Shown piece after piece: positions 3,649-63,969 of a DNA stretch of 64,000 bases; position 1 is the stretch's first letter; each line of letters begins with the position of its first letter. The notes beneath the pieces are model-generated. The model was not told the origin of the DNA. It worked only from the letters and a program-made list of their open reading frames with translations, and did no database searches. This stretch comes from Pelosinus sp. UFO1 (GTDB lineage Bacteria > Bacillota > Negativicutes > DSM-13327), in NCBI RefSeq assembly GCF_000725345.1, contig NZ_CP008852.1, positions 3,526,001-3,590,000 of the forward strand. Reading direction: 5' to 3'. A program made the position numbers and the translations under genes.

Positions 3649-5544
3649 CTACCATAGGGGGATCCCGCGCTGGGGTATGGGTGGAAACGGTGACACAGGA
3701 ATGGTAAACGTAAATTGATTGGTGCCGCTCAATTCTCCGATACCGGCATCCACATTTGTGATCACATCACCTAGCACTGGAGCGGCCAAGATCGTAAAAG
3801 TCACAGTCAACACTCTTGTTGAAAGAGCGGGTATGGTCAATCCGGTCCAGGTAATCAGTATGTTGGCATTAGAGTATGGTCCCGTAGGCGGGCTGATTGT
3901 TGCCGACGGACTAGTTGTTAAACTGCCGATCTGCACATCCGCAGGTATGTGAATCAGATCCACTACCGTAACGCCGGTGGCATTGGTAGAGTCGCTGTTG
4001 GTAACAATAAGAGTAATGGTTACCGTGTCTCCGACAGTAAAGTGGGTGCTTGGAGGAGGGGGAATGGGGCCTACCGTGGTAAGGCTCAGGAAAACCCCAG
4101 TTGACACTGGAATGGTACACGTAAATAGATTGGTGCCGCTCAATCCTCCGATGCCAGCGTCCACATTTGTGATCACGTCACCTAGCGATGGGGCTGCCAA
4201 GATCGTAAAGGTCACAGTCAACACTTGTGATGAAAGAGCGGGTATGGTCAATCCGGTCCAGGTAATCAGTATGTTGGTATTAGAGTATGGCCCCGTAGGC
4301 GGGCTGATTAGGGTTGCCGATGGACTAGTTGTTAAACTGCTGATCTGCACATCCGCAGGTATGTGAATCTGATCCACTACCGTAACGCCGGTGGCATTGG
4401 TAGTGTCGCTGTTGGTAACCGTAAGAGTAATGGTTACTGTGTCTCCGACAGTAAAGTGGGTATTCGGAGGAACGGGAGTGGGGCATACCTTGGTAAGGCT
4501 CAGGAAAACTGCAGTTGACACAGGAATGGTGCACGTAAATTGATTGGTGCCGCTTAATACTCCGATACCGGCGTCCACATTTGTGATCACGTCACCTAGC
4601 GGTGGGGCGACCAAGATAGTAAAGGTCACAGTTAACACTTGTGATGAAAGAGCGGGTACGGTCAATCCGGTCCAGGTAGTAAGTATGTTGGTATTAGAGT
4701 ATGGTCCCGTAGGCGGACTGATTGAGGTTGCCGACGGAGTAGTTGTTAAACTGCTGATCTGTACATCCGCTGGTATGTGAATCTGATCTACTACCGTAAC
4801 ACCGGTGGCATTGGTAGTGCCGCTGTTGGTAACCGTAAGAGTAATGGTTACCGTGTCTCCGACAGTAAAGTGGGTGCTCGGAGGAGTGGGAGTGGGGCAT
4901 ACTTTGGTAAGGCTCAGGGAAACCGCACATGTCGCTATTGTAATGGTGTTAGTGTCTAATGTAACCGCGCCATTTCTAGCCAGCAATCGGCCATTCACCT
5001 TTGCGCCGGTCTTCGCTGTGATTGATGTCAAAGCCAGGATGTTTCCCGTGAAGGTAGAGTTCGTTCCGAGGGTCGCAGAACTGCCGACTTGCCAAAATAC
5101 GTTGCAAGCCTGAGCCCCATTGATGAGATTTACGTTGCTACCCGATCCCGTAACGAGTGTGGACCCTATCTGGAAGATGAAGACAGCATTGGGGTCGCCC
5201 TGGGCATTGAGGGTGAGAGTGCCTGTTAACCCAAGTGAAGACGTGGATTTGTAGACTCCAGGGACGAGGGTTAGCCCTACAAGGTCCCCAGCCACGGCGG
5301 TAGCAGGTAATCGTCCGGCAGCATCGTTATATGCGGTGATCAAGTCGGTTTTTGCCTGTTGAGTGACAGCATCGCCTCCATGGTTCGTCCCGATCAATGT
5401 GACAGAACCAAAGCCAGTTTCTGATGTAGTTGGAAACGTCCCAACATCCCCGGTAATCGTGGTCGGACCGGTGTTGGTAATCCCGGCGCCGGCCAGAACT
5501 GCGAAACTGTTGGCCGTTCCAAGGTTTACTGATGGTTGAGCCAT
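3649..5544 (-). CDS. DUF3494 (ice-binding-like) domain protein with three DUF11 repeats
   Basis: About 631 residues. Residues 1-205 are a DUF3494 beta-helix domain (motifs NSFAVLAGAGITNTGPT, GDVGTFP, PGVYK, VFIFQIGSTL, NVFWQVGSSATLG). Three DUF11-type repeats of about 137 residues follow, each with THFTVGDTVTITL, NATGVTVVD and PALSSQVLTVTFTI. Such proteins are usually surface adhesins or ice-binding proteins, yet no signal peptide, LPXTG or S-layer domain is visible. Repeats 1 and 2 keep KVCPTP cysteines; repeat 3 has lost them. Start: ATG at 5544 after AAAGGAGGTG; the GTG at 5559 is inside the ribosome binding site. The protein ends abruptly after repeat 3. Confidence 0.85.
   Translation of the reverse strand: MAQPSVNLGTANSFAVLAGAGITNTGPTTITGDVGTFPTTSETGFGSVTLIGTNHGGDAVTQQAKTDLITAYNDAAGRLPATAVAGDLVGLTLVPGVYKSTSSLGLTGTLTLNAQGDPNAVFIFQIGSTLVTGSGSNVNLINGAQACNVFWQVGSSATLGTNSTFTGNILALTSITAKTGAKVNGRLLARNGAVTLDTNTITIATCAVSLSLTKVCPTPTPPSTHFTVGDTVTITLTVTNSGTTNATGVTVVDQIHIPADVQISSLTTTPSATSISPPTGPYSNTNILTTWTGLTVPALSSQVLTVTFTILVAPPLGDVITNVDAGIGVLSGTNQFTCTIPVSTAVFLSLTKVCPTPVPPNTHFTVGDTVTITLTVTNSDTTNATGVTVVDQIHIPADVQISSLTTSPSATLISPPTGPYSNTNILITWTGLTIPALSSQVLTVTFTILAAPSLGDVITNVDAGIGGLSGTNLFTCTIPVSTGVFLSLTTVGPIPPPPSTHFTVGDTVTITLIVTNSDSTNATGVTVVDLIHIPADVQIGSLTTSPSATISPPTGPYSNANILITWTGLTIPALSTRVLTVTFTILAAPVLGDVITNVDAGIGELSGTNQFTFTIPVSPFPPIPQRGIPLW
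3701..4925 (-). repeat. Three tandem DNA repeats of about 411 bp inside the DUF11 region
   Basis: The same block (GGTGCCGCTCAAT.CTCCG) recurs at 3720, 4131 and 4544, about 411-413 bp apart. Near-identity at DNA level, not just protein level, points to recent unequal duplication. Confidence 0.85.
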
Positions 5545-5559
5545 AAGAGAGAAAAACAC

Positions 5560-8580: not shown

Positions 8581-8669
8581 TGTCAAGGGGACAGGTCCTT
8601 TGACACTCGCACCTTTAGACGCGGGGACGATGGTTCTGTCTTGCAACTTCTTTCGAAAGGGACACGGGG
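8581..8669. repeat. Composite B + C repeat
   Basis: TGTCAAGGGGACAGGTCCTTTGACA is followed by GACGCGGGGACGATGG...TCTGTCTTGC. The same composite is longer at 10624-10752 and 47830-47957. Confidence 0.8.
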
Positions 8670-8948
8670 AAACTGCAGATTAACAAGAGACCTAAACAGA
8701 GACTTACTGGTAAATAATAATTATAATGTAAAATTATTTCAGGGTTTAGTGTTTGTGAAAGAGAAGCTACCCATAATTCGAATTTCACAAATAATTTCAT
8801 TAGTAGTCTATTTCCATTTTATAAATTATCAGTTATCGTGGCCTAATCATCACCATCACATTAATTTCATTTGTACTTAATTGATTTAAATCATTTTCAA
8901 TGCCCGCCGGATTTCCAATTCTCCCTTCTGGATCATACACAAAACAGA

Positions 8949-9047
8949 TGTCAAGGGGACAGGTCCTTTGACACTTGCACCTTTCTTACCATTTCACGCT
9001 TTAGTTCCACTGTCTCCGCAATCCCTCTTAAAGACAAGTTGGAAATC
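8949..9047 (-). repeat. Type-B repeat carrying RAYT 3'-end remnant
   Basis: The palindrome TGTCAAGGGGACAGGTCCTTTGACA is followed by sequence whose reverse complement encodes part of a helix-turn-helix (LSLRGIAETLELNREMV-like, here diverged). The stop codon lies inside the palindrome. Confidence 0.7.
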
Positions 9048-9372
9048 ACGGAGACGGTTCTTTTGAGTCACTCCCCTCTTTTTGATTTGGGACAAAGGGA
9101 CGGTGGTCCTGTCTTGCAACTTCTTTCAATAATTCCCTTATTGACAACTGCCACTACTTCCCCTTGCCTTTTTATGTTATCTACTCAAGAGCATCGTAGT
9201 AACTACTTACGGAAACTCAAGGGGACGGTTCTTTTGAGTCACTCCCCTCTTTTGTCTCATGTCATAAGTATATGATCATAAACTTTTCTTTGAAAACGAC
9301 ATCCCATATTTCTATCCTATTTACCATTAAAATACAAAACTCCTGCAAGACTAAGATACTTACAGGAGTTTG
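9047..9372. repeat. Partial A, C-type and full type-A repeats in series
   Basis: GACGGTTCTTTTGAGTC at about 9055, a C-type core AAAGGGACGGTGG...CCTGTCTTGC at 9100-9128, and a full type-A element at 9213-9372 ending in a TCCTGCA...CAGGAGTT hairpin. No gene is supported in 8670-9660. Confidence 0.75.
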
Positions 9373-9515
9373 ATTTGTTATAGAACGTTTAAGCTTATAC
9401 GTACATATTTACCATTTAAAATTTAGCCTATTAACATTTTAATTCCATGTGCAAGATAGGATAAGGTTTCCCTGCCCCATCAAATTCAGAACGATTTACG
9501 ACATGAAATCCCAGA

Positions 9516-10621: not shown

Positions 10622-10623
10622 AA

Positions 10624-10752
10624 TGTCAAGGGGACAGGTCCTTTGACACTTGCACCTTTGGTAGACGCGGGGACGATGGTTCTGTCTTGCAACTTCTTTC
10701 GAAAGGGACACGGGACAGGTTCCTTGTCCCAAATAAAAACACTAGCTTTAAA
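10624..10752. repeat. Composite B + C + GGGACA repeat
   Basis: Type-B palindrome, type-C core, then GGGACACGGGACAGGTTCC and TTGTCCC. About 128 bp matched almost throughout by 47830-47957, which shows that several palindromes spread as one unit. Confidence 0.85.
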
Positions 10753-11052: not shown

Positions 11053-11580
11053 ATGAGCAATCAGACAATATTATGGGGTACGTTAATTATACCTTGGTTA
11101 ACACTATTCTTTATGCCAAGAGAAGATATTAGACGTTTTATGCCTGCTGGATTATTAGCTATATTCATGACTTTTATCGCAAGCGAATTAGGAGTTGCAA
11201 ATGGGTGGTGGTACTTCCGGGAAACGATCTATCCACTAGCTATTTTACCTGCCTTCTACTACGGGCTTTACCCAACAGTGCCGATGTGGATTTTAAAATA
11301 TACATATGGACGTTTTTGGCTGTTTTTATTAGTCGAAACCTTAAATAATGCGCTGTTTGTTTTCATTATTTTGCCATGGGTTGCTAGTAGAGGAATTATG
11401 GATTTCCCTTCTAGATTATTGGGATTTATTTTTACGATGATCATGGCTTTCTCAATTTACGGTTTTCAAATGTGGCAGGAAGGCGTATTTTCCCATTCTG
11501 AAAAAACTAACACCTCTATGAGCTTACAACCAGCAGCAGCAAAGCCACTAACAAAAAATCAAGAAAACAAAGAAGATTAA
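11053..11580 (+). CDS. CBO0543-type membrane protein, copy 2 (complete)
   Basis: 175 residues beginning MSNQTILWGTLIIPWLTLFF, with five hydrophobic segments and a polar Ala/Lys-rich tail. AGGAGGG lies 7 bases before ATG 11053; the longer upstream frame runs through repeat sequence and is not real. Bases 11056-11671 are identical to 1-616, including the terminator. The upstream 70 bases (AAACGTTTGCCAATGTTAGC region) probably carry the promoter, but no clear -35/-10 pair was found. Function unknown. Confidence 0.8.
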   Translation: MSNQTILWGTLIIPWLTLFFMPREDIRRFMPAGLLAIFMTFIASELGVANGWWYFRETIYPLAILPAFYYGLYPTVPMWILKYTYGRFWLFLLVETLNNALFVFIILPWVASRGIMDFPSRLLGFIFTMIMAFSIYGFQMWQEGVFSHSEKTNTSMSLQPAAAKPLTKNQENKED

Positions 11581-20059: not shown

Positions 20060-20644
20060 TTATGCTTTTAAAACAACACCTCTATTAATGCCGGTGAGTC
20101 TTTCGATTTGCCGAATTGATAAGTTATGTTTCTGCTTAAGCATTCTTAAGTACGTATTTCTTGTTTGACAATCAAGTTGCTGTAAATCTATCGCATTTTT
20201 TAAGTTACATACCTTCTTGATTATAACTCTTGCTTCTTCGTCTCTAGTGCGCTGCTTGGCTTGATCATCAATATCTAAGCATTCATGCTCACTCATATCA
20301 TTGGTATATTTGATAAACTTTTGTATTGCCTTTTCTGTTTCGTCGCTCATCATTTCAAGTAGAAAATCTACATCTATTAAATCTGCTTGGTTTATATATT
20401 CTTGAAAACTGCTCCATTTATATTCTTCAACGCATTTTACAAGTCCCGCTTTGACTGGATTCTGATGAATATATCTTTGCACTATTTGAAAATATTGATC
20501 GTCTTCTACTGGTTCACTTTTAAATCGGTCTTGAAACAGATTACCTACTCTCTGATATTTAGTATTATACCAGTACACATAGCTTCCACATAGCCGGCGC
20601 ATTACTTGTTCTAAGGTCTCTATACCTATCTTCATCAACAGGTG
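20060..20644 (-). pseudogene. RAYT (REP-associated tyrosine transposase), N-terminally truncated
   Basis: The remaining 194 codons read HLLMKIGIETLEQVMRRL, YNTKYQRVGNLFQDRFKSE (with the strand-transfer Tyr region normally further on), RYIHQNPVKAGLV and YKWSSFQEYI, the second half of a Y1/IS200-like RAYT, followed by a C-terminal helix-turn-helix LSIRQIERLTGINRGVV. The first His of the HUH motif and about 90 upstream residues are missing. A GAGTCAA-arm palindrome replaces them from 20645. The apparent start TTG at 20638 is only the Leu codon after the last His. Probably inactive. Confidence 0.85.
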
Positions 20645-20645
20645 C

Positions 20646-20880
20646 GTGAGTCAAGTGACGGTTCTTTGGCTCACCTTTACAAATTTTTATTATTACTTAT
20701 TTCCCATAAACATACAAAACTCCTGCCAAATTCATACAGAAGTTGGCAGGAGTTTTCCGCCGTTTGACCTGATACGATTCTGCATATCAGGTCAAACGGT
20801 AAATATTTTAAGAATATACTACACTGAACAGGGGTTTGGCACGGCGATCCGTGACCTTGCAAATCCACCCTATTTTTCGT
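20646..20880. repeat. Type-A variant and type-H element
   Basis: GAGTCAAGTGACGGTTCTTTGGCTC, then the hairpin AACTCCTGCCAA.../TTGGCAGGAGTT, and type H GGCACGGCGATCCGTGACC, in which CACGG/CCGTG pair perfectly. The rest of 20881-20997 holds nothing recognisable. Confidence 0.75.
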
Positions 20881-24097: not shown

Positions 24098-24210
24098 TGT
24101 CAAGGGAACAGGTCCTTTGACACTTGCACCTTACTTACCATTTCACGGTTTAGTTCCAATGTCTTACCATCTTATTATTTTAGTGCCAATGTACCTGTCC
24201 CCTTGACATT
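24098..24210. repeat. Type-B inverted pair with RAYT tail remnant
   Basis: TGTCAAGGGAACAGGTCCTTTGACA at the left and ACCTGTCCCCTTGACA at the right. Between them is the conserved TTACCATTTCACGGTTTAGT block that, read in reverse, belongs to the RAYT-B helix-turn-helix. Confidence 0.75.
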
Positions 24211-33313: not shown

Positions 33314-33400
33314 CTGTCAAGGGGACAGGTCCTTTGACACGTGAGATAAGATGAAGGGAGCGACTCAAAAGAAACGTTCCCTTGATTTCTTGGGAAACAA
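33314..33400. repeat. Type-B palindrome plus a degenerate ACTCAA-arm palindrome
   Basis: TGTCAAGGGGACAGGTCCTTTGACA followed by ACTCAAAAGAAACGTTCCCTTGA. Both lie inside the chimeric frame 33210-33464. Confidence 0.8.
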
Positions 33401-36208: not shown

Positions 36209-36580
36209 ACTCAAGGGGACGGTTCTACTGAGTCACTCCCCTCTTTTTCTCTCATGTCATAAATATATGATCATAATCTTCTCTTCGAAAAGCAGTATCC
36301 CATATTTCTATCCTATTTACCATTAAAATACAAAACTCCTGCAAGGCTAGGCTGCTTTGCAGGAGTTTGCCGTTGTATATTGATTGTTTACTACCTACCC
36401 GAAATGTCAAGGGGACAGGTCCTTTGACACTTGCAACTTTCTTACCATTTCACGGTTTAGTTCCAATGTCTCCGCAATCCCTCTTAGGGACAAGTTGGAT
36501 TTTTCCATCACAGGGACAAGGGGACAGGTTCTTTTCATATTTCAGAACGGGACAATCAACCTGTCCCCTCGTCCTTGTAG
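36209..36580. repeat. Full type-A, type-B with RAYT tail, and a GGGACAA inverted pair
   Basis: Type A at 36209-36377 (3' hairpin CTCCTGCA/TGCAGGAG). Type B at 36404-36510, whose reverse strand reads MEKSNLSLRGIAETLELNRE, that is, RAYT HTH. Then ACAAGGGGACAGGTTC faces ACCTGTCCCCTCGTCC at 36517-36580. No gene in 36018-36675. Confidence 0.85.
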
Positions 36581-42615: not shown

Positions 42616-42766
42616 GGAAAAGGGGACAGGTCCTTTGACACTTGCACCTTTCTTACCATTTCACGGTTTAGTTCCAATGTCTCCGCAATCCCCCTTAGGG
42701 ACAAGTTGGATTTTTCCATCAGAAGCTTTATCAGTTCCTCTCTTAGCGATTTATTGCCTATGAAGA
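42616..42766 (-). repeat. Type-B repeat with the longest RAYT-B C-terminal remnant
   Basis: Read on the minus strand it encodes FIGNKSLREELIKLLMEKSN, LSLRGIAETLELNREMVRKV and QVSKDLSP, the C-terminal helix-turn-helix of a RAYT, running into the GGGGACAGGTCCTTTGACA core. Confidence 0.8.
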
Positions 42767-43596: not shown

Positions 43597-43668
43597 AGTG
43601 TCAAGGGGACAGGTCCCTTGACACTTGCACCTTTCTTACCATTTCACGGTTTAGTTCCAATATCTCCG
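43597..43668 (-). repeat. Type-B repeat with short RAYT tail
   Basis: TGTCAAGGGGACAGGTCCCTTGACA plus TTACCATTTCACGGTTTAGT. The core has a perfect GGGAC/GTCCC pairing here. Confidence 0.75.
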
Positions 43669-43798
43669 CTTATCTCCTGTGGGCAACCTAAGGTATTACC
43701 AATACCAATAAAGCTGGAATCACATTTAGAACGGTTCCTTGCAGTGGCGCCACACATTCTTTTGAAAGCTACTTACTGATACGGAATGTAAAAGAACT

Positions 43799-47797: not shown

Positions 47798-47829
47798 AAT
47801 ATTTTCTCCATTCTTAAAAAATAATAACA

Positions 47830-48125
47830 TGTCAAGGGGACAGGTCCTTTGACACTTCACCTTTGGGAGACGCGGGGACGATGGTTCTGTCTTGCAACTT
47901 CTTTCGAAAGGGACACGGGACAGGTTCCTTGTCCCAAATAAAAACACTAGCTTTAAAGATTCGAGGGGACGGTTCTCTTGAGTCACTCCTATCTTCTTGC
48001 CTCATGTCATCAATGTATAAACATAAGCTTTTCTTCGAAAACAGTCTCCCATATTTCTATCCTATTTACCATTAAAATACAAAACTCCTGCAAGGCTAGC
48101 TACTTTGCAGGAGTTTATCGCTATA
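47830..48125. repeat. B + C composite followed by full type-A repeat
   Basis: 47830-47957 repeats 10624-10752 almost base for base. Type A follows at 47959 with ATTCGAGGGGACGGTTCTCT and the hairpin CTCCTGCAAG...TTTGCAGGAG at about 48085-48115. Confidence 0.85.
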
Positions 48126-61966: not shown

Positions 61967-62090
61967 ATGTCAAGGGGACAGGTCCTTTGACACTTGCACC
62001 TTTCTTACCATTTCACGGTTTAGTTCCAATGTCTCCGCAATCCCTCTTAGGGACAAGTTGGATTTTTCCATCAGAAGCTTTATCAGTATG
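61967..62090 (-). repeat. Type-B repeat with RAYT-B C-terminal remnant
   Basis: On the minus strand: LIKLLMEKSNLSLRGIAETL, ELNREMVRKVQVSKDLSP and a TGA inside the palindrome. The 61583-61966 part of the gap shows no gene. Confidence 0.8.
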
Positions 62091-63810: not shown

Positions 63811-63969
63811 ATGTCAAGGGGACAGGTCCTTTGACACTTGGACGGAGACGCAGGGACGGTGGTTGTGTCTTATTAACTAAATCCTTTTATTTGCTCCAGT
63901 TACCCTAATTATCGTATAAACTAACCTTCTTAGCATACGGCAAGACACTACCACCGTCCCCGTGTCTTA
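63811..63969. repeat. Type-B palindrome and type-F inverted pair, copy 2
   Basis: TGTCAAGGGGACAGGTCCTTTGACA then, at 63845-63969, GAGACGCAGGGACGGTGG ... AAGACACTACCACCGTCCCC, a 125-bp copy of 24860-24984. Confidence 0.85.

Follow-up and report, generated by a model that had tools for sequence, protein, structure and literature searches.

Repeats and the question they raise

The 64,000-nt stretch of the Pelosinus sp. UFO1 chromosome analysed here (NZ_CP008852.1, positions 3,526,001 to 3,590,000; the window) carries dispersed palindromic repeats, one class of which (type B) continues into a piece of reading frame on the reverse strand. The copy at 42616 raises two questions: from what gene do these pieces derive, and how did copies of such different length come about? 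The first-pass annotation had read them as 3′ ends of a lost RAYT-like gene and named six positions (8949, 24098, 36404, 42616, 43597 and 61967); copies were found at all of these places, and five further short copies were located in the window (8581, 10623, 33315, 47829 and 63811). The features concerned are given below, with element positions referring to a complete 883-nt element of Pelosinus fermentans JBW45, against which the remnants were mapped.

8581..8616, minus strand: short remnant, element 847-882; joined to an upstream right end in a composite that occurs three times
8948..9043, minus strand: type-B remnant, element 788-883, with stop; 5′ side adjoins a type-A right end
9271..9425, minus strand: type-A repeat, empty-site counterpart of a miniature insertion in the related genome G006, 85% identical through the join
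10623..10659, minus strand: short remnant, element 847-883; second copy of the composite at 8581
20060..20656, minus strand: what is left of a second, different transposase of this class (37% identity), without its N-terminal part; a GGGGACAGGG palindrome of its own comes after it
24098..24207, minus strand: miniature derivative, left end 16-59 fused to 816-882
33315..33343, minus strand: near-solitary right-end palindrome, element 854-882; beside an inverted type-A end (chimera)
36404..36510, minus strand: type-B remnant, element 777-883, with stop; adjoins another right end (GGGACAAGGGGACAGG type)
42620..42760, minus strand: focal type-B remnant, element 738-878, the last 47 transposase codons without the stop
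43599..43669, minus strand: type-B remnant, element 812-882, with stop; no palindrome at its 5′ junction
47829..47864, minus strand: short remnant, element 847-883; third copy of the composite at 8581
61967..62087, minus strand: type-B remnant, element 763-883, with stop; borders on its 5′ side a gene block common to JBW45
63811..63840, minus strand: near-solitary right-end palindrome, element 854-883; adjoins another right end

All six longer copies had been thought to end in a stop codon inside the palindrome. This holds for five of them (8949, 24098, 36404, 43597 and 61967), which read S(K/R)DL(S/F)P-TGA. In the focal copy the frame runs ...SKDLSPFPTLSFSIYET, the palindrome ends at GTCCCCTT and passes into other sequence, and the last ~5 nt and the stop are gone. 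The segment SLREELIKLLMEKSN is whole in the focal copy only; its last ten residues remain in 61967 and its last four in 36404.

Two other features of the window may be recorded here. Positions 1-300 and 11056-11355, 11 kb apart, are identical over at least 300 nt and represent a recently duplicated block, and a 636-aa frame at 3649-5559 (minus strand) contains internal repeats at a spacing of 411-414 nt.

An intact parent element in Pelosinus fermentans JBW45

The intact parent of the type-B repeats, 883 nt in length, is present twice in P. fermentans JBW45, at 4,536,139 and 4,539,411. The two copies lie 3.3 kb apart and, because they are near-identical (99.4% over 868 nt) and have different flanks, they indicate that the whole element has moved in this genome. 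Both ends are imperfect palindromes in inverted orientation, TGTCAAGGGGACAGGTACATTGACA on the left and (G)TGTCAAAGGACCTGTCCCCTTGACA on the right (CCAG replaces CCTG in one copy), with the termini TGTCAAGGGGACAGG (left) and CCTGTCCCCTTGACA (right) and a single gene between them. This gene starts with an ATG at element position 86 and encodes a 264-aa Y1 (HUH) tyrosine transposase with the motifs DNHIHL and RYVHQNP and a match of 57.5 bits to Pfam Y1_Tnp (cut-off 23). The score against the NCBIfam model for REP-associated tyrosine transposases (REP_Tyr_transpos) is 73.7 bits (cut-off 80), and the match to the NCBIfam IS200 model is weak (20.8 bits, cut-off 55). A C-terminal extension of ~140 residues gives matches to HTH_11 and similar HTH models, all under the Pfam cut-offs. 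The presence of two intact elements in JBW45 contrasts with the report that RAYT genes show no IS-like multiple copies (PMC2817692).

A RAYT-like parent with the type-B C-terminus had been predicted to exist in relatives. A search of 100 related genomes with the 45-residue tail met exactly this C-terminus, with its palindromic stop, in congeners, at 93-98% identity in three of them; the UFO1 tail is 96% identical to the intact JBW45 parent. Within UFO1, tail matches occur at ten places (E 2e-22 to 7e-4), all on one strand and all in 3.51-3.62 Mb. The predicted loss of the gene from this strain was borne out as well: the full-length type-B gene is absent from the UFO1 genome (genome-wide search; 5,115,410 bp), and the tail of its sole full Y1 gene (398 kb) is a different one. 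The origin of the type-B repeats from the JBW45-type element is close to certain.

The stop codon lies inside the right-end palindrome

The TGA stop of the JBW45 transposase sits within the TTGACA of the right palindrome. This design is kept in five lineages outside Pelosinus, where the reading frame closes with ...SP-stop at the corresponding point of the palindrome:

Sporomusa silvacetica, 79% identical
Candidatus Formimonas warabiya, 66% identical
Anaerobacterium chartisolvens, 52% identical
Clostridiaceae MAG, 59% identical
Peptococcaceae SCADC1_2_3, in which a second locus (contig 73) has a broken frame

Other families of the same transposase class in Pelosinus have their stop before the palindrome, and for this reason a stop within it can be taken as a mark of the type-B family.

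Remnants retain the right end

The longer UFO1 copies begin at element 438, 514, 729, 738, 763, 777, 788, 790, 812, 816 or 847 and all extend to 878-883, while several copies are bare or almost bare palindromes (854-883). Alignment to the JBW45 element thus agrees with the proposal that remnants of different length share their 3′ end. The right end is retained in every UFO1 remnant, the focal copy being without only its final bases and stop. Pieces consisting of the left part only were not found; most searches were keyed on the right end, and those that used the complete element or protein also gave no 5′-only piece. N-terminal 'fragments' in Sporomusa silvacetica were considered as a counterexample to this polarity and dismissed, as the two examined finish at contig ends. 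These parts of related transposases (loci L185 and L187) run up to the ends of their contigs, which suggests that intact elements are multicopy in this species and were collapsed during assembly.

An origin by 5′ truncation, as first proposed, accounts for the fixed 3′ end, but some copies keep the left end or carry internal deletions. The left end is retained in 24098 and in G006 288429-288598, the G006 copy having 143 nt of the left part fused to the right end, and further internal deletions occur at UFO1 3596937, 3615618 and 3613224. Nor is the reading frame maintained across the copies: substitutions private to single copies are distributed 9:9:14 over codon positions 1:2:3. The tails are therefore not maintained as protein, a conserved coding function is rejected, and the type-B copies are decayed pieces. 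The predicted stability of the palindromes is modest, and a plasmid collection searched with the repeat gave no match.

A miniature derivative has moved

The same joint between element positions 59 and 816 is found at three sites: 24098 in the window, UFO1 3,512,553 and G006 292,846. The miniature is 110 nt long (left end 16-59 plus 816-882) and its flanks differ among the three sites, from which it follows that it moved without a gene of its own; it has done so as an internally deleted unit in both UFO1 and G006. When joined, the flanks of the G006 miniature match, at 85% through the joint, the type-A repeat located at 9271-9425 of the window, and no target duplication is visible in this filled/empty pair.

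Truncation points often lie next to other right ends

There are 12 independent left junctions without a left end in UFO1. Seven of them start 7-12 nt past another, identically oriented right-end palindrome core, a position shared by 3.9% of intergenic positions in the zone described below (binomial P about 1e-7); the remaining five touch no other right end. Three of the five G006 junctions likewise begin just after another right end. Anchoring at the copy's own palindrome, as first suggested, is consequently half the picture, since in many cases truncation falls at an upstream element's right tip. Same-strand palindromes occur within 150 nt of each other in 25 cases (8 expected), and the outcome is chains, in which right end X is followed by a short tail with right end B, and onward. 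One chain, consisting of an upstream end and a B tail, is present three times (8581, 10623 and 47829). Because some chains are present more than once, composites that finish with a B right end must themselves have multiplied. Inspection of the truncation points by eye revealed no common cleavage tetranucleotide.

Four composite copies in G006 (contig C2, 315561, 321252, 322628 and 330157) end in a bare B palindrome and have the same left neighbour, which in UFO1 precedes the left end of the 24098 miniature. This shared neighbour suggests that the G006 bare-palindrome composites arose by collapse between two TGTCAA motifs.

Such a collapse, like the internal deletions at 3596937, 3615618 and 3613224, resembles ordinary slippage, and the spread of private substitutions across all codon positions is also what would be seen if full-length insertions had decayed by random deletion (replication slippage or short-repeat recombination) with no part for the transposase in truncation. 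The right end would then remain as a stable or useful hairpin, or because the searches use it. Random deletion should, however, leave 5′-only pieces too, and none were found with the full element or the full protein; the coincidence of junctions with the tips of other right ends, far above background, also argues against it. We consider this explanation possible but rather unlikely.

The chains could also be built by one-ended (5′-truncated) insertion, in which a single-stranded piece whose 5′ end is arbitrary, but whose right end is proper, enters preferably 3′ of an existing right-end tip. The same succession of right ends and tails would result, with the same fixed 3′ end, and composites with a B right end present in several copies would fit. 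As no genome pair shows the same remnant before and after truncation, deletion and one-ended insertion are indistinguishable on this point. We find one-ended insertion doubtful, however: the only empty site found is that of the miniature and none was found for a truncated copy, and we know of no IS200/IS605 enzyme that inserts one-ended as a routine. When whole repeat islands were screened systematically for empty sites in G006 and JBW45, all matches but one (3,685,937) had unchanged spacing. Almost no island in the zone core has both flanks adjacent in either genome.

A strand-biased zone of shuffled blocks

A 17-base core of the palindrome (at most one mismatch) occurs 57 times in the UFO1 genome, with 54 copies on one strand and 51 within 3.505-3.711 Mb. 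For the 10-base core GGGGACRGKT, 62 of the 93 matches are in this zone (54 to 8 by strand), and the 31 outside correspond to background (32 with a reversed-pattern control). The palindrome zone spans 206 kb (3,505,000-3,711,000) and includes the whole window; in the corresponding region of G006 the palindromes are likewise clustered and biased to one strand. The plus strand of the zone has negative GC skew and the sense of the element gene is the G-rich strand, which places the gene in leading-strand sense (lagging-strand template), all strand statements here being derived solely from GC skew. A lagging-strand template sense is expected of IS200/IS605-like insertion.

On either side of the zone, UFO1 and G006 match collinearly at about 95%. 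Inside it the blocks that they share (0.4-8 kb, 92-99% identity) are shuffled in order, and all but one keep their orientation. Their cargo is ordinary genes (carbonic anhydrase, radical SAM, EamA transporter, ECF riboflavin transporter). Relative to JBW45, too, the blocks are rearranged. Some blocks are common to JBW45 at 90-98%, against about 80-82% for genes just outside, and so have probably moved between species. A UFO1 palindrome core is found no more than 40 bp from 27 of the 70 non-collinear block ends, compared with 12.9 for random intergenic points (2000 draws, maximum 26).

This mosaic, its preserved orientation and the excess of block ends at palindromes (27 of 70, 13 expected) would also follow if homologous recombination or natural transformation shuffled blocks in a plasticity zone, with elements riding passively and breaking at the joints. 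Passive transport leaves unexplained the identical miniature joint at three unrelated sites, the empty site, and truncation ends placed right at right-end tips, and is in our view an improbable account of the repeats. The transposases may drive the block shuffling, or the zone may simply accommodate both. In a more far-reaching scheme, which we regard as very unlikely, the palindromes would be joints of an integrase-free cassette array: Y1 transposases acting on distant pairs of ends on the lagging strand would move host genes with orientation kept, continually reshuffling the genes of the 200-kb zone and exchanging them between Pelosinus species. An integron cassette array was rejected for the zone, which has no integron integrase (best TIGR02249 score 96.9 bits, cut-off 265).

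Relationship to known systems

The type-B element appears to fit the TIRYT/TIRtron elements and TnpA-REP subclass 2.1 and not to be a new kind. Like them it combines a Y1 HUH tyrosine transposase bearing a C-terminal extension with genome-dispersed repeats, its terminal repeats forming a dispersed family (62 core motifs in one UFO1 zone). TIRYT inverted repeats contain GGGGWSAS, and the repeat sometimes overlaps the 3′ end of the gene, marked 3′ov in the figures (Di Nocera et al. 2013, PMC3733652); the matching transposase class is TnpA-REP subclass 2.1 (PMC6006769). In type B, GGGGWSAS is represented by GGGGACAG, with TGTCAAGGGGACAGG at the left JBW45 end and CCTGTCCCCTTGACA at the right. What sets type B apart from TIRYT/TIRtron is a stop-in-palindrome design shared with five non-Pelosinus lineages, a complete unit present more than once in a single genome, and remnants whose lengths form a gradation and which are linked to neighbouring right ends.

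RAYT and BIME/REPIN systems also have a transposase gene between palindromes (PMC2817692; PMC3116915). Nunvar et al. (2010, PMC2817692) described four cases in which the 3′ end of a rayt gene, with its stop and a REP, was built into a BIME, and an enrichment of REPs near the rayt gene in Thauera. Unlike these systems, type B is without the classical GTAG tag (its palindromes end in TGTCAA/TTGACA), its tails are graded and its parent element occurs twice in JBW45. Given the TIRYT description (PMC3733652) and these BIME cases, neither the kind of element nor the gene tails in repeats are new.

IS200/IS605 elements (IS608, ISDra2) share with type B the Y1 enzyme, the palindromic ends, a strand bias that fits a lagging-strand template and the lack of target duplication in the filled/empty pair, but type B has a C-terminal extension, inverted ends and a weak NCBIfam IS200 match. 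Its 110-nt miniature, with left and right ends at several sites and no gene, recalls MITE-type derivatives, except that derivatives with just the right end, and composite ones, are no less common. As far as the literature shows, what is new is the graded series with an intact parent, truncation tied to neighbouring right ends, whole-element copies and strict confinement to a shuffled zone.

A model for the origin of the repeats

The type-B repeats are probably the remains of a TIR-associated Y1 tyrosine transposase element (TIRYT/TIRtron), shortened as follows; the truncation step taken by itself we consider evenly balanced. The transposase would act on the single-stranded lagging-strand template, which would explain why the copies lie on one strand. 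It would cut at the tips of right ends and join a cut tip to a point inside the next element downstream, so that this next element loses its 5′ part and keeps its right end. Such tip-to-interior joining could build up chains in which short-tailed right ends follow one another, and repeated trimming, together with slippage between two TGTCAA motifs, could produce solitary palindromes. The gene would have been lost afterwards and the palindromes would persist. Any role of the enzyme in block shuffling would be a further step.

How REP-like repeats arise from their own transposases is an old question. The stages of the type-B family form a complete series: the intact element, which a sister species still has, the miniature, the gene tail and finally the palindrome alone. 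The origin of REP-like repeats from transposases is therefore testable within one genus. With about 160 palindrome cores in one shuffled zone, mostly on one strand, a role of the enzyme in genome rearrangement is testable as well. The type-B series hints at how such elements decay, and elements of this kind may help to rearrange genomes.
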